Below are positions 2,352 to 34,075 of a stretch of DNA of 36,558 nucleotides, one piece after another; positions within the stretch are counted from its first letter, which is position 1, and each line of letters begins with the position of its first letter. The DNA lies in the NCBI GenBank assembly GCA_030833205.1, contig JAURHS010000018.1, positions 1 to 36,558 on the forward strand, given 5' to 3'. The notes under the pieces were generated by a model, which was not told where the DNA came from, did no database searches, and saw only the letters and a program-made list of their open reading frames with translations. Source of the stretch: Prosthecobacter sp. GTDB lineage: Bacteria; Verrucomicrobiota; Verrucomicrobiia; Verrucomicrobiales; Verrucomicrobiaceae. Position numbers and translations under genes: made by a program.

Positions 2352-2879
2352 ATGAAGCCAACCCTCGCCCCCAAGTCAGTCGCTTTGCCGACCCGCACGC
2401 GTTCCGGGTTTTCCTTGGTCGAGGTGGTGTTGGCGGTGGGCATCATGGGTCTGGGAGTGGTCACGATTTTGGGCCTTCTGCCTCATGGTCTGGAGCTGTC
2501 GCGCAAGACCTTCAACGAGCAGGCGCACACCCGCATTGTTGACTCCATTGCCTCCGATCTCCAAGGGGCCTCATGGGCCGACATGGCGGGCGCCACGAGG
2601 GCAGGCGGGATCAAATTTTTCTTTGATGATCAGGGCTTGCGTCAGGAGAGCTCCACCAACGCCACTTTTGTGGCCAGAGCACAAATGGTCAATGAGGCAG
2701 AGCTGACCATCGGCATGCCCATGCCAGGCAATGCCAACTCCCTGCAACCCAACCCGAACCTTCGTCGCATTCGCATTGATGTGGCCACCTCGCAGGATCA
2801 GAACTTCAATTTCGACGCGCCGCCCGCAGCGGCTCCAGTCAAGCGCTACACCGCCCTGGTGGCCAAGATGCGCCCCTGA
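2352..2879 (+). CDS. Verru_Chthon cassette protein B, prepilin-like (GspI-like)
   Basis: A 175-residue protein with a class III (prepilin-type) signal. A basic leader R15-T-R-S-G19 is followed by FSLVEVVLAVGIMGLG, predicting cleavage G19|F20 with Glu24 at +5, then a hydrophobic helix and GLLPHGLEL. The start ATG has AAGG about 10 nt upstream (2338-2341). The sequence GLLPHG right after the helix and the overall length fit Verru_Chthon cassette protein B (TIGR02598). The helix and the following segment resemble the minor pseudopilin GspI, which is my inference. Processed by a prepilin peptidase, it would sit in the inner membrane or at a pseudopilus tip. It is first in the block, 37 nt before the giant gene, so the two are probably translated from one mRNA. 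Confidence 0.88.
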   Translation: MKPTLAPKSVALPTRTRSGFSLVEVVLAVGIMGLGVVTILGLLPHGLELSRKTFNEQAHTRIVDSIASDLQGASWADMAGATRAGGIKFFFDDQGLRQESSTNATFVARAQMVNEAELTIGMPMPGNANSLQPNPNLRRIRIDVATSQDQNFNFDAPPAAAPVKRYTALVAKMRP

Positions 2880-2916
2880 AATCATGCTGCCTGTGCAGCG
2901 CTACAAAAGGATTTTT

Positions 2917-3021
2917 ATGAACACGAAGCATTTTCTTCGTTCCTGGTTGAGTTGGGCCTTGTCCCTGACCTTGCTCGCCCTCGGCTTCATGCTGCTGAGC
3001 GTCCTCAACTCTGCGTTGGCG
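2917..3021 (+). other. Sec signal peptide of the giant protein
   Basis: Residues 1-35: a polar start with K4 and R8, a long Leu/Ala hydrophobic core (residues 10-30) and an S-A-L-A cleavage site before Q36. This supports both the chosen start and export across the inner membrane. Confidence 0.85.
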
Positions 3022-24000: not shown

Positions 24001-26805
24001 ACGACCAACCTGGTGGCTCCAACGGTGTTGATGCGGCTTGGTGCGCCTCCGCCGGTCTCGCTAAGCGTCGCCTTTGACCGGGGCAGTGATCCCTTTGAGA
24101 TGCGTTGGTATTTCCGGGCCTCGCCCGAGGCTGCCTGGACGGAGTTGCCTGCATCCAAGTTGCTGCCCAATGCCCTCGCCCCCGTTTCGGCACAGCTCGA
24201 TCTCGGCCTGGCGAGGGCAAGTCTTGAGGGCCAGTACAAGGCGGTGCTCTACAATAACGCGCAACGCAGCGGCGTCTCCAGTGATGTGATTGATTTGAAG
24301 GTTGATCAACCCGCAGCCATTGTTGCTGACTTGCCTGCTGAGACCAAGGCCTCAGCTGGACAGAGCCTGAGGTTGCGCATCTCCGCCTACGGCGAATCCC
24401 TGACCTATCTTTGGCAGAAGAGCACTGCGGCCTTGCCGACAGATTCTGATTGGACCGATGTCTCAGCCCCCAGCGCGGATAGTCTCATGTTGCAGGCAGC
24501 GGACTTGGCCACGCCGACAAGCTACCGGGTCAAGGTGCGTGGACCCGTTCTGCCAGGTGTGGCTTCGAATGAGGTCATCAGTCGCGTAACCCGCGTCAGT
24601 CTATCCGAGGACGCCTCGATTCTTGAGCAACCCCTCTCCCAGACTGTCCTTGCCGGGACTGATGTCACCTTCACCTCATTGGTCGGAGGCGGTGAAAACG
24701 AGCGCACCCAGGCTTGGTTGTTCAACGGCTCGCCAGTCGCCGGTGAGTTCACTGACACGCTTCGTCTGCCTTCGGTCAGCTTGACCATGGCAGGGGCTTA
24801 CTCCATGCGGGTCACCAACCGTCCCGTGGTCGGCGGACCGCTGAAGACGATGACCAGTGATTTGGCAAACCTGACCGTGGTCGAGGATCCCCAGATCCAG
24901 GTGAATGTCGTGGTCGGCAAAACAGGCACCGCAACAGCGACTCTCAGGGCGAATGTGAGAGCCGCCCGAGGTGTGGTGCCCACCTACCAGTGGCTGAGAA
25001 ACGGATCGCCATTGCTGCCATCGGTGAATGCCGTTGGCGTTGCCACGGCTGTTCTTCAACTTAAGGAATTGGTTGCCGAGGACTCTGGCACCTATGCCTG
25101 TTTGGTGACTGGACATCGCTACACTGCCGTGGTTGGGGCGACCCACTATCTGCGTGTGGCGTCTGCAGCTCCTGCCTTGGTCACCACTGCGGCACCACCT
25201 GCAGGTTCCGTGGGGCGGCTCTATGCCTGGAAAATTCCCACGACCAGTGATTCGGCGGACCCCAGTCTTTGGAGCTCAGTTCCGACCAGCTACAGAGTCA
25301 GTGGGTTGCCCGCTGGATTGCGCCTGAACACCGCCACGGGGTGGATCACGGGTCGCCCCACTGCCGCCAGTGCTGATCAGGTGCTGGGCAATGCGGTGGT
25401 CATCTCCATCACGAGCGCAGTGCCCTCGGCTTCCCCGGCAAGCCTAACTTGGAGCACGAGGCTGATGGTCAGGCCGACGACAGCAGGTCTTGTGGGCGCG
25501 TACTCTGGCTTGATCAGGCCTGGATCGCTCAACCAGAATCTCGGCGGTCGTTTCGACATGACCGTCGCATCGAATGGATCACTTTCGGGGGCGGTGACGC
25601 TTGGCGCCCAGGCCGCGCGGCGCTTTGTCGGTGCCTTGGATTTTTCAGGAACTCAAGAGTCGGAGATGGTCAGCGCCCGGCTTCGGTTGGCAGGAACCAG
25701 GACCGACCCGCCACTGGACTTCGTTTTTGATCTGCAGCGTGTGAGCGACGGAGAGGGCAGACCGCCGATCACCCGACTTGCCAACGCATCCCTGAGTTAC
25801 AGCGGCCTTAGTGTAGGTGTGGTGGGCTGGCGCCACCGCTATGCGGACCGCGAGGTCACCTCAGTCAGCACGCTGCCCTCGGCCTTCCTGATGCGCAATG
25901 CCAACCAGCAACTGCTGGCGACTCGCTACAACTGGTTGATCAATCCCACCGCCAATCGCCTGGTGGACAACAACAGCGCACCTACTGGCACAGGATTTGT
26001 CAGTCTGCTGCTCACGGCAAAGGGAACTTATACCTTTGCGGGTCGTAGCGCTGATGGTGAGGTGCTCAGCGGTGCAGGTTCCCTTGGACCGGTAGGCGAG
26101 TTGCCCATCTACGCCATGCTGTACCGCACTGCCACGCCGGGTTCGCTGCTGGCCCTCCCGGCAGATGGCAGTCTTTCGCCAACCCAGGCGCAACAGGGCA
26201 TGCTCCGCCTCGTTGTGGCTGCCTCCGCAGCAGACAACACCGTTGAAGGCGGCATGCGCTGGATCAAGCCCCTGACCAGCAACCTGAAAATCCGCACCTA
26301 TCGGAGCGGTTTTGGACCTCTGGCCATGGAGGCGATTGGCAGTGTGTATCTGCCCACCAATAGCACCCAGACAGTTCTGGGGACCTCGCCGTTGAACCCT
26401 GCCTTTGGCGATCCAGCCAAACTCAGCTTCGCGGAAACCATCACCAGCCTCGCGGTGGATGCGCTCACCGGGACCATGGATGTCAGTGCAGACTTCAATC
26501 CGAATTTGGCCGAATTGCGAATTCTCCCTGGCACCAGCAACAAGGTGGTGATGCCAATGAGCAATCCCGCGGCTGTTGCCCTCTCGATCGTCGCGCCCTC
26601 GGGCCAGCTCAGCGGATCCTTCAAGGTGCAAGACACGCTGGCTGGTGGCAAGATTGCGTCCCGAATTGGGCAGTTCCAAGGCTTGGTGATTCGGCAGCGC
26701 ATTGATGCGGACACCGTCAAGCAGTACGGAGCGGGCTATTTCCTGCTGCCCACTGCGGACGGCAGCGCCGTGCGCTCAGGACTCGTGATTCTCGCCACCC
26801 CCTGA
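2917..26805 (+). CDS. Giant secreted mosaic protein with autotransporter-associated beta-strand repeats (7962 aa)
   Basis: I chose ATG 2917 because AAAAGG ends 6 nt upstream and a typical Sec signal peptide follows, with cleavage predicted after ALA35 (A35|Q36). In-frame ATGs at 2731 and 2884 are poorer. The frame stays open to TGA 26803-26805. Most of the scaffold is autotransporter-associated beta-strand repeats (TIGR02601/PATR type), for example KEGSGRLLLRGG, KTGSATLNL and KQGTGVVSLSGSSTFAGG. These are interrupted by Gly-x-Gly-Tyr repeats, Asp-box propeller blades, delta-60 repeats and other modules described in separate entries. Three Ig-like domains, a He_PIG-like domain and a C-terminal domain end it. 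Cysteine is very rare (I noticed about eight), as expected for an extracellular protein. There is no terminal beta-barrel and no PEP-CTERM or LPXTG signal. Role inferred: surface adhesin, matrix or biofilm protein. Its place between cassette genes B and A suggests that machinery exports or assembles it. Confidence 0.9.
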   Translation: MNTKHFLRSWLSWALSLTLLALGFMLLSVLNSALAQSSFDGSWFNFGGGSWGGLNTTNWSYTAPVRPAAMTAQLNPLPRIRVIRRNDYVESVVLDTTFPDPGGSGYTKPPTIYFSDPGAGALGRPAVFRAVLDGNGSINSFEEVDRGSGYTGNISAQISQEVTGVVVTSAGSGYAQAPLLNFSGGGAFNTSSPPAVSIRGGVGGGAELSVNVTGSAITSVNVINPGRGYSTALRPSIQVIGFDPLAGASGASVGSGASLTPSLGLSSRSFVLVNGASFGLTDQSFAVTSGTQTYSVAPKVTISGGGAIADATATAVLDASGLVTGIKIVNPGSGYFSAPTLSFSGGTVLVAGTAPTATGNTTNFKDLSDTFGVTAQSFTIASGTQTYSVAPTVTISGGGAKVDATASASINASGLVNAITITDPGRGYTSAPTLTFSGGTVLAAGTAPSAEGNAANFVDLARTYSVAPTVTITGGGATSAPTATAVLINGKIAGISVSNPGNGYTSAPTAAFSGGTIQNNGLTPSLVVDDDFFVISSVVVAAGGTGYNPARPPVARVVGRTPSFAAQASVVVIDGRVAAVPLSQSGSGYTYPPVVVISGGPAGLLGGVRAEARISADGQVEAIELADDIGGVSPAAGGAGGAQAIAQFSQTDKAQASMGVISSVQILDGGQGYSSVPTITVGATAQTTAVAVSQITDGSVSSVSVPNQGSGYVVAPLVTPLTNRWTGYTANPLLRFSSNGVTAALANANFATTGANAGKVTSLSLVDGGAGYTAAPEVILVGGKGSGASATAFINRGAVIGVVVTNGGSGYGTGAEAPRIVFGGNFLVGTSFGAEATANVSGGRIVSITVTRGGFNYWTPPQVFIQSGTPTTKATATATLTSGRVSGFAITDGGSGYTSSPIVAFKTGTTTFPVANVSTSVTYFNTPFAGRVYQTNVLYPGEGWTGSTSPQVVLTGGVVNGGPQATLQVIRDSVAGTVRGLWIANPGGAEPARLLANLSPQGGVGSVQIISGGTGYLSAPLLVLEAPTGNAAPLALAPGGPGSFVQFTRDIGNIAVSLDAQRVVGSLSIGDGGGGDPLGIVSGTGGTNSSLVMSMGPRGGGRAFFNKRQGGNDYINAPLELRDQVHLSLTGGSLTLNGPITGSGGLQLNGGATLFVRSSSTGATRSPLWLGNRGTIELGSRGGPIFGSIRLGDNSYGSTGGSATLQLWASRGSGLADRSAFLDQIDDAATVLVDAVANRWGYLKLLGGDERIGNLVDLNNAVVLENMEGEGINTDASLVLGGNNLDSYIGGYARDRASGGGTGALGIVKEGSGRLLLRGGNISYTGDTVLKSGVLRLTNTSNFASRIVASEGTRVEIETTSNVDFSRGIVGSANLVKLGSATLSFRSGNLDLDNLSSRAGTINILPGAASFFGASNRVAGALGTAGESGLSRSMRLGGSVSVGSLRVEGAFWDSSSNSETRVEGQDFTTTFTGITANTQGFFTDGVLESRGAVEAVNSTLRMAPKEIARTFEVASAANGTTAILKDITNVVVGAVVVLGPTESAYDANLRHIVGGTVVTAVNPATREVTFNNPVKLAAGTKLGFYFSSTTDGVIRAEYLAYTSAVYDPVSALFVAVTANGTIHTSANGTSWTEVRRPEFEGVALNAIAIKVGVAGVAPSQFVAVGDNGRILYNGTGDPAEVRSGGVEVSNDWQLVGSTGTGMALYAVVNRGGDRWVAVGRDGTIISSGNPSLSWQQTAGAPSTDSDLLGLTSAGAFARSVTVAASNATTVGFADVSNIGVGDEMVLTWGSTASGSVVVPASTKVTAVGTGTVTLDKAVSLPVGTRVDFLASMVAVGRQGEVLRSLDGQSWSRAALPMNSRSSVIRGIVDTSSERSLILSNSARVSGSGATSVAFANLRADTTATSEKITNINGADILRPGSMVVFNGVQAGASVVSVDVANRSARLSMPSTASGYVAIRTIRGLTSNRVLPITGASVYASYNAPNLANLFERVNHGLNTGDAVTLAGIANGAGLKAGFTYYVIRVSDSSFKLADNLANARAGVSVIVRNNRFGVTVLPSANIIREVSNTRGLRPGMLLHGTSLSAPAVITAIDEVNRSIIISGTPTLSGVGYFGVLYGTATANSTDLTALRLLPSMQALSGLSEHLFKQVGGLPVGKDISEFPGRTAFGGTAVASLSLQNNSLMLTEPASGSGYAPLYTIKGITSNGSDVVSGLTAADLAGLQVGQEIYLNGSLEAADVFEINGIAAINPPSSSEATDGELVLRAAVNLNRDSAPTSVDLGVFTGKFTEGQSEVTDLSNRVGVPAPQLDLPDYRSVLAVTRTRFFAVGNNGGVLTSADGGLTWTSSNSGTGRDLYSAVMSGTRVMVAGEDGLILDCDQNGTGWTTLRAPDRSDLLDARQVREVRALVNGGGNLVALGRGGLARSGTTWSTSPNDTFSGSSLFLTVAGRAGAPSSAASGRAGEINIRNQYSPVVAAERRIAPGSSGVLVNTNNSNRVEDSIVLRSLGGVFSFENNNADAAFRETVGGLWLDQGQLRIEAFEAGAAGSSRLTFNSLSRTPGATVDFVSRVSPNTTPLSGSMGRNSRNQVMMAVAPTLDNGIVGGWATLDNEWATYDATNGFAKLASGGVGYSDVGNGANSTSFTAAMNARFLGGIALSNANRALNSIKIDSSNTLNLGTGFTSIESGGVLVPNVTATIANSRLTVGGAAGTSPILYLNVNGTLNLGSIVNNAPANITKIEDFSSTVPLSSTSSVTALTFANAASLTGLLPGMSVSGSPSIPTGTVIQSISGTQVTLSRALTGSIAASTPITFTGAPVSLAKSGSGTLVFFGTNATGGLDEIGLGYTGKTYLNAGVTQVSGTGRLLEFGRLPRFLVADHLQINGGTLRFANPAVNPLGAFPQLSTINDTRGIQIGSSGGRIEVGQGNPAPDTRLDLVIESPIRALGVLELAVSGNGVNQNRITLGRQGGANLYQAGLKMDNGFNGDVIVLGSNTIGGVYKQSGNLIIDGDASGGGNNFTLPIRSTAGNLTLRGRNLWLGGSEFIEPLVISGGTLRLEGAEALGGGGLRLDMGGSARLSLGGESRRIVQLTNLSANNNAAIDNSGGLNQAATLTMDLDQNADFFGSIEDGGNSLRLVKTGSATLNLRNENSSFSGGLEILQGGVDVSSIDNGFGGVFEFSGLGQVLSADPQNLKINGGMLSFTLSRPQVMARSFTMGAGPMGAAIASRGVGRTSGITIGRTSGAASPAVAFEGSGNRIFTLAGTSISNNIFALEIGDKSATEVTSVHKMGAGNWILSKPNAFTGWTTVANGSLGATVNDAFGSEAWEVKVTPGQPREFEVVGTKPPLPEGVELGFITLNRSLLPDGITANGRYSVEDVDVASGTFRLAARPEMGGQIPVPMAALFGLKSITIQSGLPREFFSAENLPNGTVLTLPQLVTSVLPTGMNASDRYVVVDSQGGYFRVASEADAQRTPISVSFGAQTLSIVEAGTANTGSTFEVSNPLPNGTQLSFSKISGQMPVGLVEGISYTVVQAQGNRFKVSFWPGGSPVMVTPRPGEVSLTPKKVLTQLQPISSVVQVVPRFVDKATTTVDPDTDEFTGWVPVGSWVVFGRKALPVGVALLPELAGGQGVAFEEGRPFYVSSSARGRFKIKANATDPNPLNFDTSGTPDGLFYSTNFKANDSGGVNLMAGGAVDLRNVDYRTPERMVLEGGALRVPAGMRSVWGGNIDVNTPSTIQVDTGGSLTINGILDGSRGLTQEGEGNLVFAGESLASVLNGNNIFRSMTVRAGLLTLDYSLNGQSKLVDQAPLNLGGSRRGGSILLRGGDHIETVLNTVLESGANTIKRDSGTSVMRLNAVARQLGGTLMVDGGRMAQIDNLNVGGILGAWAVIRDTVVNANWVIDGTTSGTVTVSSLVGAVTPGTNSHLLTASSPHTLRDGTAVRMVSGSAPAQIQSGVFYYVADSRGTSRTFRLARTYRDAINPRGARVLFSGPWNQSFALSHQLIGILNASGDQISTGDGHGLVSGSRVRLSPLIDGETMPPGLSSSVDYYVVFPETKSLKLSLERNGPPIDLRAGPQGSAMTLAIETQGAHRFAGPASASFRVADSFRINGLQVAGEQTNGRVKVLLRYTAQIPSASNEVTRTGSGSIADPYVFVINTSPAASSPVEIEAMLSRDPENEVRDILVMFRSTAAPTSSFLSNFSNIPTAASFGAYDQLDLDGNPTAQSLDGGTLDNGSRELDWARAQMADGSLVNLGDAFVAPNSTYSDGWDQLLHTSLRANLTSLSVDQPKTYSVRFAAQNEASILLDLARVHTVRSGGILVSPTVGANDVRIAGAGSLTTENQGNVGNLVAQQYNPLGMLVIGSNMVDRGTVVRGAYLTSNGGRTIYLNSSVSAADAAQLRPGWTVAGTGITVGSRIMSISPGGRVITLDRNHNGVSAQIDCTFSSPDAATNLVLNAFVSNPGRRVLAGILNPNPAEDGVQGINVGDLVRGTNIQAGTVVLEILADRQSVVISRDHTAAFMVRDTYEFEDGAQRIIRRRASLGGSGGNNRDVLFGVASPSNLQTLWVSVPGDISVALELAALMAAAPGGNWSISGPGIAQNTRVTAVSADGRVLTLSTAHSGLDGNGRYTVVNGSNRLAFNATTFASLPADQARVSTSDLYIGMPVSGRGILPGTVIREVLNESDIRLSSNHAYDGSWAPITFTPQTGFEKLGVGAASLTGINTYTGATYIANGRLRIGNLTNGGIAGPLGASSAAAGNLIFNGSELQYQGESAQTNRGFTVADFATLNIGHERTVAAFTGGIASGTDTLNKQGSGTLVLSASMNLGTLSVQEGTLALRTVDSNPSPSGFSPSNFSTGSQTSLRMEGGRLEVVGSPEGNATQTLGGALVLAGGGSEIRVTSPLSSISVGTTLATSLQLMGQVEEQPIQRGPGATVRFALDASVVEGRYSSAEISIALDKFSNEPLSYAVFQPYSGGVAGKVTQFAMVNAPALGQNYGKVVGASSVQYAQIANFNDSLYDYQRLAMQSRASAVGMFITEDFAALQGNLDTDSYARLLRYDQPYSGTVTVGAGKFFQLTDGAILLTEDAVNAVKEIAGASADGLAQGTLQSGLLNAVNSDLIVHQYNPSGPLKISAAIGDRTVRLAPAQVRAEAGAMEILLTKGISELELNSIRAGMKVSLANQDGSAVTAVDTSIVSISLEEVWIDFDGDGRRDSGERFSHRLVLDKPLLANHVDGNLNLSEATNLVQSGLGTTIISSPSGSYSGKTFVQGGVLRVDNAGALPGGLALQPEGSTLPSSAVVIQGGVLGLGYGDFTRSTGSLDSQVLFTASGGFAAYGQDRTVNLGGQLIPDTVRYGNSGFVPDGSSLVLGSRDATNKLIFANPIDLSSFSQAVRVEQGPAQIEGELSGTLSGLGQLVKFGKGSLLLSGSNDHRGGIEIADGRLVASAVEDVFGLGGAVRMGTSATNSTRDSGIELHLQGGGPAIANPIEVGSVNSRAAPWMGSMADPGQAGGGEFAAKMVGGLPAVAYRDTAGQLRFARALDQRGLSWGAPVLVDPVAQISGTVSLEVVNGVPAISYYSSMAKALMYVRATDSQGVTWGAPISVTGATPSVVEVDAQGRALLGGSFAGIDGEYADASGNVVNQRLIRFNLDGSVDTTFRPRILNGEVRCILVLSDGDILVGGTFTSVFDDVSQRVITRNRMARFSPTGSLRSYDPSPNGDVRTIVRESASKIMVVGAFTTYANLGRSRVVRLNADTLSVDTTFATDIRNGEVRAVLPVDVEGDGTMEYMLGGSFTDVAGVNRNRMIRVLNNGAVDGSFGIDVNNTVNQIELWNSRYLIAGAFTAFQGGALPRQRLALVNSNGALDETFLVDANNEVKELCMLSDGSFMASGSFTQVAGFARFTTVRVLSTGAVDPDFSPVFNAEVRSVAEVSLGSPAASHLMMVGGFNLVQADDVLGDALPARYWGQHTVARLRTPTALAPSILDTTFQRLRWDCGEFASMCVVNGNPAIAFRDSANKDLCYVRSTDTDGNGWPMPETLDDGAGDASADLGVGISLVVGRAYGETWTKSNENTESTADDTITLSNTNIGATGAPIVVYGNASNGSLRYIAADGNNGTGYGSLGLKLPISNWSRPLTMTNFGNGIGRRFALTVVDMNDLLLPVVVAQSRAASGDSLRISVANSSSGITYPALRDASGVILRLKLSEAPPQLDWGTPRVVDSTGVGDALSADLRYLPAVAAVKQRATQDKATIAVTYHDVATGRLLIASALNQTATSWSAGQVVHATNRMAAVSQLLALEDGLPAVIGYSSSSSSSSGSGRLLYGTLSDSTGYSLLGFDGVTRLTGAMTLRGALQVQTSSAAAVEWAGRVAGAGGFRLWGGGSLTLSGSGNDFAASALAPGLAATPAASINGGAVLRSGVLRLASNGSLGRAVLEMGDARDRQVVAHAAIGTSLLSQGGTFNANHDGSANKTGGELLNDGTIKPPPGALLNLPGDLDLGPDSTELISSLQELGLPARSADGRVRLDFSLQLLKEVSLFRDTFLGDLPDGTLIKLYAAGLRFPQLPGPAGDESQPGFSLEMVYRVQRVSATEFKLQGLNASGDWITLNAVSAPVGIYYLRQSLWDARLLVSAEADAPQSHGVYQLAMEGNSVDRREGRINLKRVAELDELSEFSQGLQIQVGVAPFDGGRFFLATTIDQFNISPVYLIRDVNSTDKQVLISRSGTDLVNPVNVTVANAIDINTASVGSTGLNVIGAEASLTSGQAMFTGALTLQNRRAGAELESLRLLSNIGTGRGVEFGGVISEAAAEDRLSLIKQGTGVVSLSGSSTFAGGLSIEQGSLYVLNNASQGSATGSGAVSAADGTIVSGTGRIGGALTLGALNANGAGALLRPGNPLQNPTATAPAGGAAASVQTLQLDSSLIVNADSILEFRVGADFYTQLTTRSSIDLLAATPGAIRVMLADNYTPEVGTAFKILRKVNAAGAELALDLRINAAAKLYSVFDSLLQLPEELAWDTTLLASQGIIRVMGESVIPSFTTNLVAPTVLMRLGAPPPVSLSVAFDRGSDPFEMRWYFRASPEAAWTELPASKLLPNALAPVSAQLDLGLARASLEGQYKAVLYNNAQRSGVSSDVIDLKVDQPAAIVADLPAETKASAGQSLRLRISAYGESLTYLWQKSTAALPTDSDWTDVSAPSADSLMLQAADLATPTSYRVKVRGPVLPGVASNEVISRVTRVSLSEDASILEQPLSQTVLAGTDVTFTSLVGGGENERTQAWLFNGSPVAGEFTDTLRLPSVSLTMAGAYSMRVTNRPVVGGPLKTMTSDLANLTVVEDPQIQVNVVVGKTGTATATLRANVRAARGVVPTYQWLRNGSPLLPSVNAVGVATAVLQLKELVAEDSGTYACLVTGHRYTAVVGATHYLRVASAAPALVTTAAPPAGSVGRLYAWKIPTTSDSADPSLWSSVPTSYRVSGLPAGLRLNTATGWITGRPTAASADQVLGNAVVISITSAVPSASPASLTWSTRLMVRPTTAGLVGAYSGLIRPGSLNQNLGGRFDMTVASNGSLSGAVTLGAQAARRFVGALDFSGTQESEMVSARLRLAGTRTDPPLDFVFDLQRVSDGEGRPPITRLANASLSYSGLSVGVVGWRHRYADREVTSVSTLPSAFLMRNANQQLLATRYNWLINPTANRLVDNNSAPTGTGFVSLLLTAKGTYTFAGRSADGEVLSGAGSLGPVGELPIYAMLYRTATPGSLLALPADGSLSPTQAQQGMLRLVVAASAADNTVEGGMRWIKPLTSNLKIRTYRSGFGPLAMEAIGSVYLPTNSTQTVLGTSPLNPAFGDPAKLSFAETITSLAVDALTGTMDVSADFNPNLAELRILPGTSNKVVMPMSNPAAVALSIVAPSGQLSGSFKVQDTLAGGKIASRIGQFQGLVIRQRIDADTVKQYGAGYFLLPTADGSAVRSGLVILATP
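3220..5985 (+). repeat. Array of about 17 Gly-x-Gly-Tyr repeats in the giant protein
   Basis: Residues about 102-1023 hold roughly 17 copies of a degenerate unit built on G-[SRTNQ]-G-Y-x-x-x-P-x-[VLI]-x-[FIV]-x-G-G, for example GSGYFSAPTLSFSGG, GRGYTSAPTLTFSGG and GNGYTSAPTAAFSGG. Later copies drift (GFNYWTPP, GEGWTGSTSP). Spacing is mostly 45-95 residues, with V-x-x-[IV]-x-[IV]-x-x-[PG]-G strands between. Similar units occur in many large extracellular bacterial proteins and in phage virion proteins; I know no assigned function. The array separates the N-terminal cap (G-S-W-G-G-L-N-T-T-N-W, about residues 49-59) from a strand starting VQFTRDIGN (residue 1045) that normally follows such a cap. 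Confidence 0.8.
3748..4485 (+). repeat. Three near-identical tandem units within the Gly-x-Gly-Tyr array
   Basis: Unit 1 (3748-4026) and unit 2 (4027 to about 4299) both run from F-G-[LV]-T-x-Q-S-F through SGTQTYSVAP to FSGGTVL-x-AGTAP. Unit 3 (4303-4485) is shorter and starts at TYSVAP. The TYSVAP codons sit at 3793, 4072 and 4303, giving periods of 279 and 231 nt. Similarity is much higher here than in the rest of the array, so this is probably a recent duplication. Confidence 0.75.
6296..7170 (+). repeat. First cluster of autotransporter-associated beta-strand repeats
   Basis: Units such as LTGGSLTLNGPITGSGGLQL, VKEGSGRLLLRGG with YTGDTVLKSGVLRL, and VKLGSATLSF follow the consensus K-x-G-x-G-x-L-x-L-x-G...Y-x-G-x-T-x-[IV]-x-x-G-x-L of TIGR02601. 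These predict right-handed beta-helix rungs. Further copies occur near 11359, 12304, 12757, 14170, 17029, 17335, 18640, 19140, 22020 and 23335. Confidence 0.8.
7700..10210 (+). other. Asp-box (BNR-like) propeller blades, split by other modules
   Basis: Residues about 1595-2432 contain blades of F-V-A-V-G-x-x-G-x-[IV]-x-x-S-x-[DN]-G-x-x-W type. There is a clean Asp-box, SADGGLTW, at 9922-9945 and degenerate ones near 7789 (TSANGTSW), 8092 and 8440 (SLDGQSW). The blades are not contiguous. Segments 8175-8400 and about 8520-9860 interrupt them with GT-V-type and YYV/FKLA-type modules. No sialidase catalytic set is apparent, so a structural or binding role is more likely than an enzyme. Confidence 0.65.
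12907..13870 (+). repeat. Four tandem 'YxVV...FKV' modules in the giant protein
   Basis: Residues about 3331-3652 hold four related modules of roughly 80 residues. Each has the order strand, LPxG, strand, [LM]PxG, YxVV, then a final F-[RK]-[VLI] strand. Landmarks: LPEGVELGF/FRLAA, LPNGTVLTL/YFRVAS, LPNGTQLSF/RFKVSF, and a diverged fourth ending GRFKIKA. The same pattern recurs singly near 8890 (HGLNTGDAV...TYYVI...FKLAD), 14690, 14930 (YYVV) and 22510 (EFKLQ). It resembles modules common in phage tail and virion proteins, which is recollection and not a search result. Confidence 0.6.
16000..17015 (+). repeat. Run of four 'GM-VSG-GI-GT-V-I' beta modules
   Basis: Residues about 4362-4700 carry four modules with the order [LI]-x-[PV]-G-x-x-V-x-G-x-x-I-x-x-G-[ST]-x-[IV], [IV]-x-x-I, V-x-[IL]-[ST]. 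Landmarks: RPGWTVAGTGITVGSRI, NVGDLVRGTNIQAGTVV, SISGPGIAQNTRV and IGMPVSGRGILPGTVI. Others lie near 7480, 8180, 9110, 9540 and 11200 (LPGMSVSGSPSIPTGTVI). The next segment (17029 on) returns to a beta-strand repeat. Confidence 0.65.
18517..18552 (+). other. EF-hand-like / GEVED-like acidic loop in the giant protein
   Basis: DFDGDGRRDSGE (residues 5201-5212) has acidic side chains at loop positions 1, 3, 5, 9 and 12 with Gly at 6, the canonical 12-residue calcium loop. With the preceding VWI it resembles the VWIDFNxDG...GE core of GEVED domains. Calcium binding is inferred from the pattern. Confidence 0.5.
19735..20825 (+). repeat. Delta-60 repeat array (6-7 copies)
   Basis: Residues about 5607-5970. 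Each unit has [LVI]-x-G-G-[SAT]-F-[TA] followed by R-[LM]-x-R-[VFL]-x-x-x-G-x-[VL]-D-x-x-F. Examples are LLGGSFAG/RLIRFNLDGSVDTTF, LVGGTFTS/RMARF, MLGGSFTD/RMIRVLNNGAVDGSF and MASGSFTQ/TTVRVLSTGAVDPDF. Arginine-landmark spacing is about 145-195 nt, matching the roughly 55-residue period of the delta-60 family (TIGR02608). These form propeller-like folds in large secreted proteins. Confidence 0.82.
21832..21846 (+). repeat. (AGC)5 microsatellite coding for a serine tract
   Basis: Five perfect AGC codons extend an eight-serine run followed by G-S-G. Copy changes would keep the frame, so this is a flexible-linker length variant and not an on/off switch. Confidence 0.8.
24301..25475 (+). other. 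Ig-like domains and a He_PIG-like domain
   Basis: Three Ig-like domains start near 24301 (ASAGQSLRLRISA...LTYLWQK), 24610 (LSQTVLAGTDVTF...AGAYSMRVTN) and 24900 (PTYQWLRNGSPL...EDSGTYACLVTG). They are followed by a putative-Ig (He_PIG) domain with GLPAGLRLNTATGWITGRP near 25310-25370. They form a stalk between the beta-helix and the C-terminal domain, residues about 7129-7520. Confidence 0.75.
25480..26802 (+). other. C-terminal domain of the giant protein, function unknown
   Basis: Residues about 7522-7962. Opens with G-A-Y-S-G-L-I, then repeated beta patterns of the type G-x-F-x-x-T-V-x-x-x-G-x-[FL]-S-G. Ends with G-S-F, F-Q-G-L-V-I and YGAGYFLLP before VRSGLVI. From memory, similar tails (G-x-Y-x-G-L ... 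GAGYFL) end many large verrucomicrobial secreted proteins. The tail has no barrel-like alternation to a terminal Phe and no hydrophobic anchor. It could be a recognition module for export or anchoring. Confidence 0.5.
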
Positions 26806-26809
26806 GGAT

Positions 26810-26831
26810 CAGGAAGTTGAGTCGGTTCCTG
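26810..26831 (+). terminator. Weak hairpin after the giant gene
   Basis: CAGGAA (26810-26815) pairs with TTCCTG (26826-26831) over a 10-nt loop, 5 nt after the stop. No T-run follows. It could partly insulate the giant from cassette A or protect mRNA. The rest of the 136-nt gap has an AT-rich pocket with CATAAT (26893-26898) that may be a -10 box, but I see no good -35. Confidence 0.25.
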
Positions 26832-26941
26832 CCGCGAAACAGCCAGCCGCAGGGCAAGTTTCTGTATGGACATGGTAACTACAAGGCATGGACATAATTC
26901 TCTTGTCAGCGGAACTCAAAATTGGCTAAATCAACCTTGGT

Positions 26942-29900
26942 ATGAGTCCTTTGCGCCGAATTTTTCGTGGTGTCCGCCGCAATCGCGGTCTTGCCCTCAT
27001 CATCGTGCTGTCGATGCTGGCCCTGTCCACCATCGTCATGCTCGCCTTCCTGACTGTGGCAGAGACGGAGTTTAAGAGCACCACCAGCTACTCCAACACC
27101 CAATCGGCACGCCGTCTGGCGGACACCGCCTTAAACCTGGTCATTGGACAGATCCGCGCCGGCACGGATCAGGATCTCGCAGTGCCTGGAACTGAGTTTC
27201 ATGCCACGCAGCCTGGTGCGGTGCGCAAGTACACCAAGGACGGAGCCTTTTTGGCGGGCTACAAATTGTTCTCCGATGAGTCAATGATCCATCGCAACCC
27301 CAACACCGCCGGCACTGCTGCAATTGCCGCCGAGTATGCATTTGTTTCGGCCAGTGAGCCAGAGTCGGGATGGAACACCGGCAACAACACTGATCGTTAT
27401 GTGGACCTCAATGAACCTGTCATCAAGGGAGTCATCGCAGCCAATGGCACCACACCCGTCAGCACGCAGGTATTCTTTCCGGTGATTGATCCCCGCGCCG
27501 CCTACGACGCGGATGCCTCTGCGGGCATCATTCCCGTTGAGGGCTTCCAATACGCCTCGACCACCGCACTCAGGGGCAACGATCTCAACGCCTCTTCGGT
27601 CAATGGGATCACCCCCGTTCAGCTTCCCCCAAACGCCAGCATTGACGCCCTGCGTCTTGCGATGCCCGTGCGCTGGCTCTACATGCTGCGGGATGGCACA
27701 TTAGGCACGCTCGATACCGGCCGTGTCTTCCAAGGACCGGCAGGGGTCAGGGCCAGCGCCACCAACCCCATCGTGGCCCGGCTTGCCTTCTGGACCGATG
27801 ACGAGTGCTGCAAGATCAACATCAACACTGCAGGTGAACCCACCTTCATGGGGACACCGCGCTACTATCACGAGCGCGACCATCGTTGGGCGGACTATCC
27901 CGCAGCGCGTGGCGAGTATCAGCGCTTTGCTGGCCACCCTGCAACGGTGGCCCTCAGTTCGGTGTTCTACCCCAACCCCTTTCTCACCTTTGATCGGGAT
28001 TTGGAAACCTACCCCGCTGGTCGCGTGGCACTGACCTCGGGCAGTGCGGCCCTGACCAATGCCATCAATGTCAAGGAGCGCATCTATGAGATCGTTCCAA
28101 GGCTTGCAGCGGGCGGCAGCAACGCGGGAACGACCCTCTTCGCCTCTGACGACTTCACGGGATCCGGCGGCTTGACCACAAGCGTCAACATGCAGACGGC
28201 GGTCAACGAAAGGCTTTACGCCAGCATGGACGAGTTGGTGTTTCGTGGTTCGGGCTTCCAGACTGCCAATGGCAGAACGCGCACCAACTCCACTGGCCTG
28301 CAGCTCTTCAATGAGTCTACCCTGGAACGGACCGCGGCCTTCCTCACTGCAAGCAGTCGTGGCAGTGAAATCAGCATGCAGGGCACTCCGCGCATTTGCA
28401 TGTGGCCCATCAGCAGCGACTCCAGCGATCGCATGCGCAGCGCCTATGACCGCCTGATTCAATTCTGTTCCACCCTGACCCCAGGCAACAGTTATATCTT
28501 CCAGCGCAGCAACGACTTCCTCGCCCAAATGAAGGGCACCTGGGTGGACGCCACTGACATTCAGCGCAATGAGGATCTCATCAACATGCTCATCAACATC
28601 CTGCGCACCGCCACCTATCCCGGCGGCAATACAGACACCCAAGGCAACACCTTTGCCAGTAAACTCAAGGGCAACGCGCAGCAAAACCACATTCAATTGG
28701 CGATTGAAATCTTCGACTACATCCGCTGCACCAACCTCTACGACAGCTTTCTTGCCCCCGACCGCAACCAGTGGCCGCTTGCCAATGTGGGTGACATCAC
28801 CGCCCTGAGCATCTCTCGCGACTCGATTGCCAGGCAGGGGCTCACCACGGTCACTCCTGGTTTTGTGCGAAACCAGTCTGACTCCGCCAACCCAGTGTCT
28901 GATCGCCGCTTGCCTGGTCATGGCCAGATGGCTCCGACCATTTGGTCGGGTGGCTATCGCGGCTTTGGCCGATCCATCACGGTGAGCGAGTTTGGCCTGC
29001 ACTTCATTTGCACCGCCGATGGACAGCCTGACAAATACAGTTGGCGCAATTTGGAATTGCAACCCAATGATCAGGGCGGAACCGACCTGAAGGTGCCCGA
29101 CTTCAGCGGTAGACATAGCGATCCAAGCATGTTGGACCCCCTCGCAGCAACTGGCGCAATCTCCGGTGGACGCACCGCTTTAAAACTGATCAACGACACC
29201 TCGCAGAACCAGACCCTGAACTACAAGCTGTACTCCGACGATGATTTCCTCGCTCGAGTTCTGCGCCCCACCGGGGGAACTGCAACGCAGCCCAAGATCT
29301 CCAATCTCGTCGCTGTGGGTTGGGGCAATGACACCGTGCGCTTCAAGGGCCGTTACTACTCCAATTACCCGCCGAACCCACGCGGCGGTCGTTACGGGAC
29401 CGACCAAGCGGCAGAGAATTCACCTGAGGTTGCAGATTGGCCCAAGGACCCCAATCGCCATCCCGGCTACATGAAAGAAAACTGGAATTACAGTCTGGAT
29501 CCAGACACACCACTGGCCGCCAATCAAAAGCGCGTTCAGGCGATGATTCACCTTGAATTTTTCTGCCCCTCGGTGGGCTACATGCAGTTGCACCCCGAGT
29601 TCACGATCGTCATTCAGCGACAGGGGATCAACCAAATCACGGTTTCAGGAAGGCGTCCCTTCAGCAGTTCCGGCGATTACATCCTCAAGAGCAGCGACAA
29701 CATCTTCGATGCTTCGGATGGCACGCCGCAGGTTGGAGGTTTCGCCAGCTTCCGCCGCTTTGCCCTGCGCCGCTCCCTGCCAGGCCGCGGTCTTGTGCAA
29801 AATGACCCCAACTACAGTCCCACCTACAGCGGCAACCCCCACAGCAATCTGGTGAGCATGGATTTGGTCTCCGACTTCTTCACGGTCCAGAGTGACACCC

Positions 29901-32221
29901 CAATGGGCATCAACTCTAGCCAGAGCATTCGCATTGACATCTACAACACCCACGACATCAGCGGAGCACAGCCCAGTCAGTCCCTGTTTATTGAGTTGCC
30001 CGCCACGGGCCGCTGCCCCGCCCCAGATCTGGTGGTGGCGCCCATCGGGTACAGCCATTGGATTGATGCCAGCACCAACGCCGTGCGCATTCATCCCACT
30101 CTGCAGGCTCCCCATTGGTGGTCCTTCCATCAACGAGGGGTGCTCAATCAGGACGGTTTCAACAACTTCTTCGGCGGTGGCGGCGCCACTGGCATGCCAC
30201 CGGATGCTGCCGGCAACCCCAACTATGGCTGGGTGGCAGGCCGTCTCTACACAGCGCCGGTCTCAGGAATTAGCGGTGACACCTCCAGCATTTATGATCT
30301 CTATCAATTCGTTCCAGGTGCCGCCTCACTCATCTTTGGCTACGATCGAGGAAATTTCCGCGGAACCGGCTTTCCCCCCAGCGGCAGCCCCGCGGCAATC
30401 CGAGCTGCGCGCATTCAATATGCGGAATCAAGTTTGAGCGCAGGCTCCGCCTCGGTGCTGGTGGAGCGCCCTCTCTACATGGGTTCCGATGTCGTCCGAA
30501 GCATGCAACCTGGCCATGGCGACCCCCGCATCATCTATGCCAAACAGAATTCGACCCCAAGGGATTGGAATCCTCACCGCTTCTGGAACAGCGATACCAC
30601 CTTCATGGCTCATAACTTCTCCTCCTACCTTGCGGGGTACGAGCCAGGCTTTGACAACGGAGTGGATGCCGGCAGTGGCGCTGGCTCTGATTTTGGAGTG
30701 TTGCCGCAAACTTTCAATGTCAACGGAACCAATTTGGTCCCCGATGCGCCCTTCTCAGGAAGTTCGAGCAATTCGCTCACGGCGACTGGCAGTTACTCGC
30801 CCGCGCACCTTGCCCGTCGTTATTACGACTTCGACGAGTCCGATCCTGGCGGCCGCATCGGCCCATTCATCAACAAGCCCGACGAGGGCAACTACTCCGT
30901 GGGGCGAGTGCAGGCCACCGGTTGGCCAACGGCGGTGGAGTGGCGCTCCACCTACTTCCGAACTTCGGTCGTGGGTGGCCGCTTTGCCCCTGGCAATTCC
31001 AGTTTCTTTACCCCAAACCGCATTGTCAGCTCGCCGGTGATGTTGGGTTCGCTGCCTCCCTATGTGCACAACAATTTGGTGGGCTCGGGCACTGACCCGC
31101 TAAGCGGTGGCAATGGTGCCTGGACCAATCTTCTCTTCAGACCGCATCTGCCCCTGAGTGTCGGCGGTGTCACGGTGGCCACCCATCCGGGGCAAGCCTC
31201 TCCCCCAGACCATTATCTGCTGGATCTGTTTTGGATGCCTGTGGTGGAACCCTACGCGATCAGCGAACCGCTCTCCACAGCCGGCAAGATCAATATGAAT
31301 TACCAGATGCTACCCTTCACGCACATCCGCCGGGCCACCGCATTGCACGCGGCCATGAAGGGCGAGATGTTCAATGCTCTGCCCAATCGCGAATATGTAC
31401 GAGCCCGCGGCAGGCGCACCGATTTCGGGCGCAATGGAAGTTCCGCCCCCACCTTCCGTTCCGAGGCAGTGGCCAACGGCGACCCTGCCGCTCGCTGGCA
31501 TCGCAGCATTGCCTTGGATCGTTTGGCCTCCATTTCTGGCGCTCCTGACAATCCCTGGTGGCAGGTGGCCGTGGGCCAGAGAGTGCTTGGCACCCTGCGC
31601 CAATTTGAGGAGCGCTTCAACTTTGGCAGTGGCTCCACCAACTTTGGTCCCAGCGGCGTGGGCGGAAGCGCCGTCAACGCGGGCATCAACCCCAGCACCT
31701 TCCGTACTGGACTGTTCCGCTCCGCCTCGCAGATCTGTGAGCTGCACCTGGTGCCCAATCCCATTTCGGTCTCTGGCAACAGCTCCATTGCGAACAACCC
31801 CAGCTCCGAGAATGTTCAGGAATCCAATCTGACCACCATGTCCGGCCGGGAATCCACCATGGCCAATTTCTGGAATAACCACGCCTCCACGGGCGACAAC
31901 AGCCGTGAAGCAATTTACTCCAACCTCTATGCCAAGTTGACGACGCGCTCCAACACCTTCCGCGTCCATGTCCGCGTGCAAACGCTGCGCAAGGCCCTGC
32001 GCGGTTCCCTGCCCACGGGTTGGGTTCCTGGAGAGGATGAAATCACCGGCGAATACCGGGGCTCCTACCTTCTGGAACGCTACATTGACCGCTCCGACCT
32101 GGCTCGCGCCGGCAATACCGTTGACTTCACCAAGATCACCAATTTTGGTGCGGATGGCCGCCCCATGCTCGATTCCTACTATCGTTTCCGCGTCCTGGAA
32201 ACCAAGCGTTTTGCCCCCTGA
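26942..32221 (+). CDS. Verru_Chthon cassette protein A, large GspK-like membrane-tethered protein (1759 aa)
   Basis: The N-terminus is basic (R5-R6...R12-R13-N-R15-G16) followed by LALIIVLSMLALSTIVMLAF and a helix with E41, E43 and a run ending NLVIGQI. This is the plan of Verru_Chthon cassette protein A (TIGR02600). If cleaved at G16|L17, position +5 is Ile and not Glu, as in GspK. At residues 286-297 lies DDECCKININTA, matching the D-E-x-x-K-[ILV]-N-[IL]-N signature of the GspK family. After it comes EYQRFAGHPAT, which I recall as typical of protein A. The rest is a long, mostly periplasmic, Asn/Gly/Pro-rich region with no other clear membrane span. No strong ribosome site precedes ATG 26942. 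The stop is 4 nt before cassette C. Inferred role: cap of a pseudopilus tip made with B, C and D. Confidence 0.85.
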   Translation: MSPLRRIFRGVRRNRGLALIIVLSMLALSTIVMLAFLTVAETEFKSTTSYSNTQSARRLADTALNLVIGQIRAGTDQDLAVPGTEFHATQPGAVRKYTKDGAFLAGYKLFSDESMIHRNPNTAGTAAIAAEYAFVSASEPESGWNTGNNTDRYVDLNEPVIKGVIAANGTTPVSTQVFFPVIDPRAAYDADASAGIIPVEGFQYASTTALRGNDLNASSVNGITPVQLPPNASIDALRLAMPVRWLYMLRDGTLGTLDTGRVFQGPAGVRASATNPIVARLAFWTDDECCKININTAGEPTFMGTPRYYHERDHRWADYPAARGEYQRFAGHPATVALSSVFYPNPFLTFDRDLETYPAGRVALTSGSAALTNAINVKERIYEIVPRLAAGGSNAGTTLFASDDFTGSGGLTTSVNMQTAVNERLYASMDELVFRGSGFQTANGRTRTNSTGLQLFNESTLERTAAFLTASSRGSEISMQGTPRICMWPISSDSSDRMRSAYDRLIQFCSTLTPGNSYIFQRSNDFLAQMKGTWVDATDIQRNEDLINMLINILRTATYPGGNTDTQGNTFASKLKGNAQQNHIQLAIEIFDYIRCTNLYDSFLAPDRNQWPLANVGDITALSISRDSIARQGLTTVTPGFVRNQSDSANPVSDRRLPGHGQMAPTIWSGGYRGFGRSITVSEFGLHFICTADGQPDKYSWRNLELQPNDQGGTDLKVPDFSGRHSDPSMLDPLAATGAISGGRTALKLINDTSQNQTLNYKLYSDDDFLARVLRPTGGTATQPKISNLVAVGWGNDTVRFKGRYYSNYPPNPRGGRYGTDQAAENSPEVADWPKDPNRHPGYMKENWNYSLDPDTPLAANQKRVQAMIHLEFFCPSVGYMQLHPEFTIVIQRQGINQITVSGRRPFSSSGDYILKSSDNIFDASDGTPQVGGFASFRRFALRRSLPGRGLVQNDPNYSPTYSGNPHSNLVSMDLVSDFFTVQSDTPMGINSSQSIRIDIYNTHDISGAQPSQSLFIELPATGRCPAPDLVVAPIGYSHWIDASTNAVRIHPTLQAPHWWSFHQRGVLNQDGFNNFFGGGGATGMPPDAAGNPNYGWVAGRLYTAPVSGISGDTSSIYDLYQFVPGAASLIFGYDRGNFRGTGFPPSGSPAAIRAARIQYAESSLSAGSASVLVERPLYMGSDVVRSMQPGHGDPRIIYAKQNSTPRDWNPHRFWNSDTTFMAHNFSSYLAGYEPGFDNGVDAGSGAGSDFGVLPQTFNVNGTNLVPDAPFSGSSSNSLTATGSYSPAHLARRYYDFDESDPGGRIGPFINKPDEGNYSVGRVQATGWPTAVEWRSTYFRTSVVGGRFAPGNSSFFTPNRIVSSPVMLGSLPPYVHNNLVGSGTDPLSGGNGAWTNLLFRPHLPLSVGGVTVATHPGQASPPDHYLLDLFWMPVVEPYAISEPLSTAGKINMNYQMLPFTHIRRATALHAAMKGEMFNALPNREYVRARGRRTDFGRNGSSAPTFRSEAVANGDPAARWHRSIALDRLASISGAPDNPWWQVAVGQRVLGTLRQFEERFNFGSGSTNFGPSGVGGSAVNAGINPSTFRTGLFRSASQICELHLVPNPISVSGNSSIANNPSSENVQESNLTTMSGRESTMANFWNNHASTGDNSREAIYSNLYAKLTTRSNTFRVHVRVQTLRKALRGSLPTGWVPGEDEITGEYRGSYLLERYIDRSDLARAGNTVDFTKITNFGADGRPMLDSYYRFRVLETKRFAP

Positions 32222-32225
32222 TCCA

Positions 32226-33359
32226 ATGTCACCTCACTCCTTGTCCAAGCTTCAACTGCGCCCGCTGCGTCGTAGGCTCCCCGTTGCGAAGGGGTTCACT
32301 CTCGTCGAAATCATGGTGTCCCTGGCGGTGCTGACCATCCTGCTGTTGGTCAGCGCTCAAGTCATTGGCCAGGTGCAGCGCACTTGGTCTTCGGCCAACG
32401 CCCGCACCACCCAGTTCAAGGAGTCGCGGACCGCCTTCGACATCATCATCCGCAATCTTAGCCAGGCTACCTTGGACACCTTTGTGGATTATGATTACAG
32501 CTACCTGGCCGAGGGCGGCAACAACAATGCAACCTCGCCGCGGGATTACCAGCCCCGCTCCTACCTGCATTTTGTCTGTGGACTGGCCAATTCGTTGGTT
32601 CCCAATGCTGGTCCTGGGCAGGCAGTGCCTGGCCATGCCATCTTCTTTCAGGCGCCTCTTGGGGTCAGCAGCGATCCAAATCTTGCAGGCTTGGACCGTC
32701 TTCTCTGCGCCCGTGGCTATTTCATCAAATTCTCTTCAGATGAGGCATGGGTTCCCCAGTTCGTGCGCACTTCCGGTTACAAGCCGCGCTTTCGCTATCG
32801 GCTCATGGAGTATTGTCCGCCCGCAGAGTTCAACGCCATTTACGACGAGACCACGGCGGCAAATGCTGGCAACCGATCGGTCAACCGCTGGTACAGCAGC
32901 GCAGGCAATGAGCCTCGAGTTGGCAACAACAGCTCGCTGATCACACTGACCAGGCCCGTGGCCGACAATGTGGTGACGCTGATCATCTCTCCGAGGCGCG
33001 AACTGCGCAATGGAGAGACCGAGGTCAATGCCGCCCGCGATCCCTTGTTGGCGCCGAACTATGCCTTCGACTCCCGCACCAACACGACCTACCGCCATCA
33101 GTTGCCACCCGTCGTTCGCATTGTTCTCATTGCCATTGATGAGGCCTCCGCCATTCGCCTCGAGCAGCTCAGGGGCTCGACCACGACGCCTCCGCTGCGC
33201 ACAACGCCCACCTTCACCTCTGCAGATCAGATGGCTGCCGATGTGGCCAAGATCACCACAGACCTCTTGGCTGAGCGGCTCAACTACCGCGTCTTCAGTG
33301 CCACCGTTCCCCTGCGCGCCTCGAAGTTCAGCGAGCTCGTGACCAATTCTTCCCCATGA
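32226..33359 (+). CDS. Verru_Chthon cassette protein C, prepilin-like (GspJ-like)
   Basis: I take ATG 32226 (377 aa), not the longer upstream frame, because it follows the stop of A by 4 nt and places a prepilin signal normally. The basic leader R12...R15-R-R...K22-G23 is followed by FTLVEIMVSLAVLTILLLVSAQ, predicting cleavage G23|F24 with Glu28 at +5. Just after the helix, F-K-E-S-R-T-A-F-D-I-I-I-R-N-LSQATLDTFVDYDYSYL is the signature stretch of Verru_Chthon cassette protein C (TIGR02599). The same layout (A-F-x-x-[IL]-x-R-x-L-x-Q-A) occurs in GspJ, the basis for my functional guess. No clear ribosome site is visible, so translation is probably coupled to A. It overlaps D by 4 nt. Confidence 0.88.
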   Translation: MSPHSLSKLQLRPLRRRLPVAKGFTLVEIMVSLAVLTILLLVSAQVIGQVQRTWSSANARTTQFKESRTAFDIIIRNLSQATLDTFVDYDYSYLAEGGNNNATSPRDYQPRSYLHFVCGLANSLVPNAGPGQAVPGHAIFFQAPLGVSSDPNLAGLDRLLCARGYFIKFSSDEAWVPQFVRTSGYKPRFRYRLMEYCPPAEFNAIYDETTAANAGNRSVNRWYSSAGNEPRVGNNSSLITLTRPVADNVVTLIISPRRELRNGETEVNAARDPLLAPNYAFDSRTNTTYRHQLPPVVRIVLIAIDEASAIRLEQLRGSTTTPPLRTTPTFTSADQMAADVAKITTDLLAERLNYRVFSATVPLRASKFSELVTNSSP

Positions 33360-34075
33360 ACCTTGTTCCTTCATTGCGCCGTCGCGGCCTGAGCGCTTTC
33401 ACCCTGGTGGAAATGCTCACCGTCGTGGGCATCATCACGCTGCTGATTGTGTTGGCCACGCCCACTCTGGTGGATGTTCTCAAGGCCACCCGCATGACAT
33501 CCGCAGGTGACAACCTCATCAATCGCCTCAGCCTTGCCCAGCAGGAGGCCATCAGCCGCAACAACGAAGTGGAAATGCGCTTTTACATCTGGGCAGACCC
33601 CAGTTCCGAGCAGCCCTCGCTGGAAATCTGTTACGCCTATCAATTGGTTGCCGCCCCAGTCAACGGGGGGGATCCTCAGGCCATCTCCGATCCCTTTTAT
33701 CTGGACTCTGGGATTGTGTTGGCTCCCGAGCCCGCGCTCTCACCCCTCTTGCAGCAACCCATGCCGCAGCCACCCCTGGTCCGTCAGTCGGGCCAGTATC
33801 TGTTTTCTCCCAGGGGCGGGCAGCCCCCCGCCAGCGTGAAATACAAGTCGCTGCGGTTTTACCAGGATGGCAGTTGCCGACTGCTCACCCAATCCACGGG
33901 GACCAACACCGATGCCACGACCACTGCCACCGCCTACACCATTCCCCAACTGGCGAGCAGCTTCCTGACCATCACCTATGCTTCGGATGTCAATACGGGG
34001 GTGATGCCTCCACGAAATTACTTCTGCATTCAAATTGATGCCTACACTGGCAAGGCTCGCGTTTATCGCCCCTGA
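33356..34075 (+). CDS. Verru_Chthon cassette protein D, prepilin-like (GspH/FimT-like)
   Basis: ATG 33356 overlaps the C stop as ATGA, so translation is coupled. The 239-residue product has leader R8-R-R-G-L-S-A14 and then FTLVEMLTVVGIITLLIVLA, giving cleavage A14|F15 with Glu19 at +5. Ala, not Gly, lies at -1. Downstream, ATRMTSAGDNLINRLSLAQQ then EAISRNNEVEMRFY matches Verru_Chthon cassette protein D (TIGR02596). It also resembles the L-A-R-S-E-A-I-x-R-N segment of GspH/FimT minor pilins. The rest is beta-rich. It is the last cassette gene. A seven-G run at 33665-33671 lies in the coding frame (codons 104-106). Confidence 0.88.
   Translation: MNLVPSLRRRGLSAFTLVEMLTVVGIITLLIVLATPTLVDVLKATRMTSAGDNLINRLSLAQQEAISRNNEVEMRFYIWADPSSEQPSLEICYAYQLVAAPVNGGDPQAISDPFYLDSGIVLAPEPALSPLLQQPMPQPPLVRQSGQYLFSPRGGQPPASVKYKSLRFYQDGSCRLLTQSTGTNTDATTTATAYTIPQLASSFLTITYASDVNTGVMPPRNYFCIQIDAYTGKARVYRP

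Follow-up and report, generated by a model that had tools for sequence, protein, structure and literature searches.

Four prepilin-like genes surround the gene for a giant protein

The stretch of Prosthecobacter sp. DNA analysed here (36,558 nt; the window) raises the question of what four prepilin-type proteins, encoded away from any secretion machine, might do for a protein of 7962 residues whose gene lies among theirs. The window corresponds to contig C114 in a draft assembly of 3.63 Mb (225 contigs, 88% complete). The open reading frame list places the five genes on the same strand, in the order B, giant, A, C, D (Table 1), with intergenic distances of 37, 136, 19 and -4 bp. The mechanical open frames of the giant and of C start at 2731 and 31968, respectively; the Met start of the giant and the MSPHSLSKL... 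start of C were adopted. Upstream of the cassette lies a PVC-type HEAT/cytochrome c gene (2-2215), and downstream, from 34114 on, lie guaB and guaA (named from sequence). B was found directly upstream of the giant in 6/6 window-type relatives inspected, so that the gene order is no assembly accident; the complete order B-giant-A-C-D was seen in all seven window-type loci checked.

Table 1. Features of the cassette, with coordinates in the window
Feature	Position	Strand	Length	Description
B	2352-2879	+	175 aa	Prepilin motif G|FSLVE; TIGR02598, 5e-29
Giant	2917-26805	+	7962 aa	Open reading frame from the Met of MNTKHFLRSW...
C-terminal domain of giant	25456-26802	+	~450 aa	Recurs in many further large proteins of the window's subclade
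A	26942-32221	+	1759 aa	TIGR02600, 1.6e-268; predicted enlarged GspK-like minor pseudopilin
KININTA motif of A	27812-27832	+		A residues 291-297; read from sequence
C	32241-33359	+	372 aa	From MSPHSLSKL...; TIGR02599, 1e-95; predicted GspJ-like minor pseudopilin
D	33356-34075	+	239 aa	TIGR02596, 3e-27; minor pseudopilin, probably GspH-like

All four products scored above the curated cut-offs of the NCBIfam Verru_Chthon cassette A-D families (bit score/cut-off 101.4/51.4, 894.3/332.3, 321.1/256.5 and 96.1/70, in the order of the genes along the DNA), so these matches are not due to chance. The window's cassette is thus a member of a set of families that come without a stated function, and its arrangement with the giant in the middle is a lineage variant. 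No paper naming 'Verru_Chthon' was found in the literature searched; the families are catalogued already, and undescribed there. Class III prepilin N-termini were read from the sequence in C (G|FTLVE), D (A|FTLVE) and A (G|LALII) as well as in B, and a prepilin peptidase is encoded on contig C187 of the same genome. The gene order and the prepilin-type N-termini described in an earlier note on this DNA were therefore both found as claimed. D has Ala instead of Gly at position -1 of its predicted cleavage site, where Ala is uncommon.

A and C are predicted to fold as GspK and GspJ

The earlier note had likened A to GspK, pointing to a missing Glu at +5 and a KININ motif, and C to GspJ, pointing to the motif A-F-x-x-[IL]-x-R-x-L-x-Q-A; both likenesses held up. 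A has no Glu at +5, and the K, N and N of its KININTA motif are invariant in the A alignment. The GspK model NF037980 matched A at 5e-8 over residues 15-95. When compared by hhalign with reference sets of canonical G, H, I, J and K from relatives and E. coli, the N-terminal region of A matched GspK at 96.4%, and G, H, I and J at 22% at most. The structure was modelled on residues 64-1263 of a relative (locus L082) 38% identical to the window's A, with a pLDDT of 76.9 and a pTM of 0.85. VIA-align matched this model to E. coli GspK (3ci0_K) at Z 11.5 (233/280 residues aligned), the next fold scoring Z 3.7. Since the alignment runs from residue 1 to residue 1199 of the model, A would be a GspK frame spread over the full protein and interrupted by large insertions, an assignment that the model of the relative supports. 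GspK has two helical subdomains. An extra beta region of A (residues ~484-806 of the L082 model) gave no match to other folds above Z 3.7. Far downstream of KININTA lies another motif, of the GKIN type (STAGKINMNYQ, around residues 1445-1455; window 31274-31306), which is strongly conserved in the family.

C carries AFDIIIRNLSQA, in agreement with the motif as quoted, and matched the gspJ profile at 4.8e-7. Its model, built for the window's sequence with an alignment of 48 sequences, reached a pLDDT of 85.5 and a pTM of 0.82. The ten best PDB entries were all GspJ/EpsJ/XcpW or the Thermus pilin TTHA1219 (Z 9.3-10.6): 5vtm_W and TTHA1219 tied at 10.6, 3ci0_J scored 10.1, and the next fold 4.4. 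The model thus supports a GspJ fold for C. The fold assignments of A and C rest on the VIA-align comparison, Foldseek by itself yielding no match at E 0.001 for either model. Searches of PDB sequences with the alignment profiles of A-D recovered pilin N-terminal helices only, and nothing relevant for A, which indicates that the heads are not assignable by sequence alone.

B and D are probably GspI and GspH

For B, the NCBIfam scan returned weak matches to the PilV and gspI profiles, and for D matches to ComGD (1e-9) and gspH (1.4e-5); the globular part of D matched PF12019 (GspH) at 0.0014, just under the cut-off. In hhalign comparisons B matched GspI at 96.8%, G at 96.1% and J at 95.6%, in each case within the shared pilin helix, and D matched G at 98.1% and H at 97.7%. 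Within the helix, the matches of B, C and D do not discriminate, as canonical G, H, I and J score equally well against one another; with the globular parts only, hhalign gave no signal for any pair between A-D and the canonical sets. Gene order offers an independent line of evidence. Fourteen related cassettes (11 in the phylum-wide set, three in that of the relatives) are ordered D-B-C-A, equivalent to H-I-J-K should the assignments be right, the order seen in E. coli and in the canonical operons of the relatives. This favours B as GspI and D as GspH. Other common orders are A-B-C-D, B-C-D-A and B-C-A-D, and the window's own order is not H-I-J-K. The earlier note's view of B as GspI-like and D as GspH-like is thus probably correct, given the gene order and the weak sequence scores, while the profile matches, being confined to the helix, do not prove it.

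The core secretion machinery is encoded on other contigs

The window contains no gene for an ATPase, secretin, platform or major pseudopilin, as had been claimed. These genes are present on other contigs of the genome: secretins on C55, C105, C87, C80 and C77, GspG on C146 and C217, and, in addition, GspF-type platforms (PF00482), GspE-type ATPases and the prepilin peptidase mentioned above. C157 carries a canonical H-I-J-K run, and C217 one that extends from GspG to GspK. Operons of the type E-F-G-H-I-J-K are present in many relatives; E and F were recognised there by position, size and PF00482 matches. The presence elsewhere of core genes and of canonical minor pseudopilins indicates that the cassette is an additional, core-less set, which supports the proposal of an orphan tip. 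It is common for minor pseudopilins to be encoded in operons with the core genes of the type II secretion system (T2SS), although this is not strictly defining. Full-length A and GspK were both missing from all six genomes of one family (f2).

The cassette is tied to the giant in one lineage

Among 47 loci fetched around A genes of the same genus, A was preceded on its own strand by an open frame longer than 1,800 aa in 34. A same-strand neighbour of the PATR/PEP-CTERM type was found within 1 kb at 34 of 60 loci of the relatives, where such genes made up 34/119 of the adjacent open reading frames vs 1/183 of the distant ones. Phylum-wide, 14 of 78 cassettes had such a neighbour (adjacent 14/138 vs distant 12/609; odds ratio 5.6, p 4e-5). 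Both adjacency tests, in the relatives and phylum-wide, ignore relatedness.

In the tree of A, the window falls into a clade of 25 rows (SH-aLRT 100), and the giant adjoins the cassette in 25/25 of them. Nine belong to the window type (giant-A-C-D), and in the seven where B could be seen it precedes the giant; the other 16 are ordered giant-A-B-C-D. The linkage was kept through this change of gene order and through an exchange of the giant's C-terminus, nine rows having the new domain and 16 a PEP-CTERM. Over the whole tree at least 16 state changes are needed, indicating that linkage to a giant was gained or lost repeatedly. The tie between cassette and giant is therefore real but lineage-bound. 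The dedication to the giant proposed in the earlier note stands for the window's clade; it does not extend to the phylum, where most cassettes (64/78) lack a same-strand PATR/PEP-CTERM neighbour, so that the note's own ground for refutation, cassettes mostly without a large secreted neighbour, applies to the phylum and not to the genus.

The idea that cassettes generally lie beside secreted proteins was rejected: by our own heuristic, signal peptides were found in 14/36 of the genes upstream of cassettes, 15/35 of those downstream and 196/563 elsewhere (phylum set). Two solitary A genes (L086:4504-8454 and L093:4499-8383), with B, C and D undetected, lie directly behind a secreted-looking protein of 1,200 residues (gaps of -3 and 21 bp) whose C-terminus resembles that of the window's giant. 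In Chthoniobacter-like genomes (L237, L238, L280, L236, L263), giant-less cassettes often lie beside genes resembling LacI-type regulators or glycosidases, as judged by eye from the N-termini; it is possible that these cassettes encode polysaccharide-specific tips.

The giant ends in a recurrent C-terminal domain

The giant has a signal-peptide-like N-terminus, and Pfam and NCBIfam scans of its pieces found PATR/TIGR02601 repeats, DUF5122 repeats and Ig-like domains. The Pfam scan (four pieces, E 0.01) detected neither the C-terminal outer-membrane barrel PF03797 of a type V autotransporter, although PATR repeats are present, nor a PilY1/PilC beta-propeller of the kind expected in a PilY1-type tip adhesin, and both identities were rejected. 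Nor is the window's giant a PEP-CTERM protein, since it ends in ...SGLVILATP, with no PEP motif, membrane helix or basic tail. The 16 sister giants have PEP-CTERM-like tails (TIGR02595 over the cut-off in one, L056), in place of which the nine window-type giants carry a C-terminal domain of ~450 residues.

This domain has no Pfam or NCBIfam name. Its end fell 0-26 residues from the stop in 29/29 complete loci examined, and it was found in 14/35 genomes of the genus, with between 6 and 33 matches per genome, most of them at a distance from cassettes; the hypothesis that it is specific to cassette cargo was accordingly rejected. In the set L172-L201 it is strictly C-terminal and ends roughly G-x-G-Y-F-L-L-P...S-G-x-V, a behaviour that suggests a sorting or anchoring domain. 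In the window's own genome, other PATR giants lie on C13 (open frame of 7301 aa), C142 (3774 aa or more) and C209 (2885 aa or more), and no cassette A was found near them; apart from the window's own, the genome yielded no cassette A. One relative, G003, whose genome is 93% complete, encodes proteins that carry this C-terminal domain as well as a canonical GspK, and no cassette A was found in it.

A candidate tip complex for the giant

Minor pseudopilins of the T2SS form a quaternary tip that is held to recognise substrates (PMC6211770). A-D are very probably minor pseudopilins of this type, A being a GspK with a head enlarged several-fold, C a GspJ, B probably a GspI and D probably a GspH. 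We infer that they would assemble together into a tip complex and sit on a pseudopilus made by the machine encoded elsewhere in the genome (GspE ATPase, GspF platform, GspG major pseudopilin, secretin and prepilin peptidase), with the giant encoded inside the cassette as their dedicated cargo. The tip would prime a pseudopilus that either pushes the giant through the outer membrane or holds it there, and the enlarged head of A would be the likely contact surface. This complete chain, in which an orphan tip would serve specifically the export or display of the giant, is given slightly better than even chances. Counted against it are the phylum-wide majority of cassettes without a giant, the lack of enrichment of signal peptides beside cassettes, the PATR giants of the same genome near which no cassette was found, and the domain-bearing proteins of G003, where cassette A was not found.

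The same proteins might instead prime a pilus or pseudopilus that carries the giant at its end as a tip adhesin, as the minor pilins of Myxococcus xanthus carry PilY1. A large secreted partner encoded within a minor-pilin cluster has its precedent there (PMC7541494), several alternative clusters per genome occur in the genus, and C matches the type IV-like pilin TTHA1219 as well as it does GspJ. On the other hand, the likeness of A to GspK extends along the entire protein, the Pfam scan of the giant revealed no PilY1/PilC domain, and the sister-group giants end in PEP-CTERM, a sorting tail; this explanation appears rather unlikely. That the cassette is a general extra tip with many substrates, such as all proteins with the giant's C-terminal domain or, in other groups, polysaccharide-degrading enzymes, the giant being one client or a co-transcribed neighbour, would account for the giant-less majority of cassettes, for those beside LacI-type regulator or glycosidase-like genes and for the recurrence of the C-terminal domain away from cassettes; pseudopilin genes also accompany alginate clusters in Verruconatronum (PMC13274419). 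The strict linkage in the 25-member clade, through changes of both gene order and giant C-terminus, speaks against this account, which is considered improbable. Lastly, the giant could be sorted by PEP-CTERM/exosortase or another route unrelated to the cassette, its linkage being historical. Sister-group giants do end in PEP-CTERM, and exosortases are present in the genus, but the linkage survives the exchange of that C-terminus and exosortase sorting by itself leaves the passage of the outer membrane unexplained, so this possibility is given very little weight.

Substrate choice by the T2SS has long been an open question. The tip complex is a prime suspect (PMC6211770), and the dedicated tip proposed here would bear on it: whole tips that are duplicated, core-detached and kept beside one giant would make tip-cargo specificity testable by deleting or exchanging cassettes in harmless bacteria. 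Tip genes kept beside a giant throughout a clade suggest that the bacteria of this lineage may fit a common secretion machine with different tips according to cargo. If true, this could explain how giant beta-repeat proteins exit without a barrel, and would provide a function for four NCBIfam families at present known by name only. It is conceivable, if rather doubtful, that Verrucomicrobiota exchange GspK-I-J-H tips lacking a core of their own in order to adapt a shared type II machine to its cargo, and that in the window's lineage the enlarged GspK head, together with the C-terminal domain found in many other large proteins, provides a dedicated path of export or surface display for proteins as large as 8,000 residues.

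Comparison with known systems

The cassette is a variant of the T2SS tip, not a new kind of machine. With GspH-I-J-K (XcpU-V-W-X; PDB 3CI0, 5VTM) it shares four prepilin-like proteins, the predicted GspJ fold of C and GspK fold of A, the absence of Glu at +5 in the latter and, in the 14 related cassettes though not in the window's own, a gene order readable as H-I-J-K. It differs in that no core genes lie nearby and a canonical set exists separately in the genome, in the size of A, about five times that of GspK with large insertions, and in the gene for a giant inside the cassette. New in this analysis are the fold-based assignment of A and C, the reading of the gene order as H-I-J-K, and the link to a giant across the clade. 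M. xanthus has three alternative clusters of type IV minor pilins, each with PilY1 as a large secreted partner likened to a T2SS substrate, which serve one core machine (PMC7541494). The cassette differs from these in that A keeps the predicted GspK frame and the giant lacks a PilY1 domain. The PulG-like pseudopilins of the Verruconatronum alginate clusters are likewise core-less and lie beside a cargo-type locus in Verrucomicrobiota; unlike the cassette, they form a single major-type family of 67 copies rather than a four-gene tip (PMC13274419).
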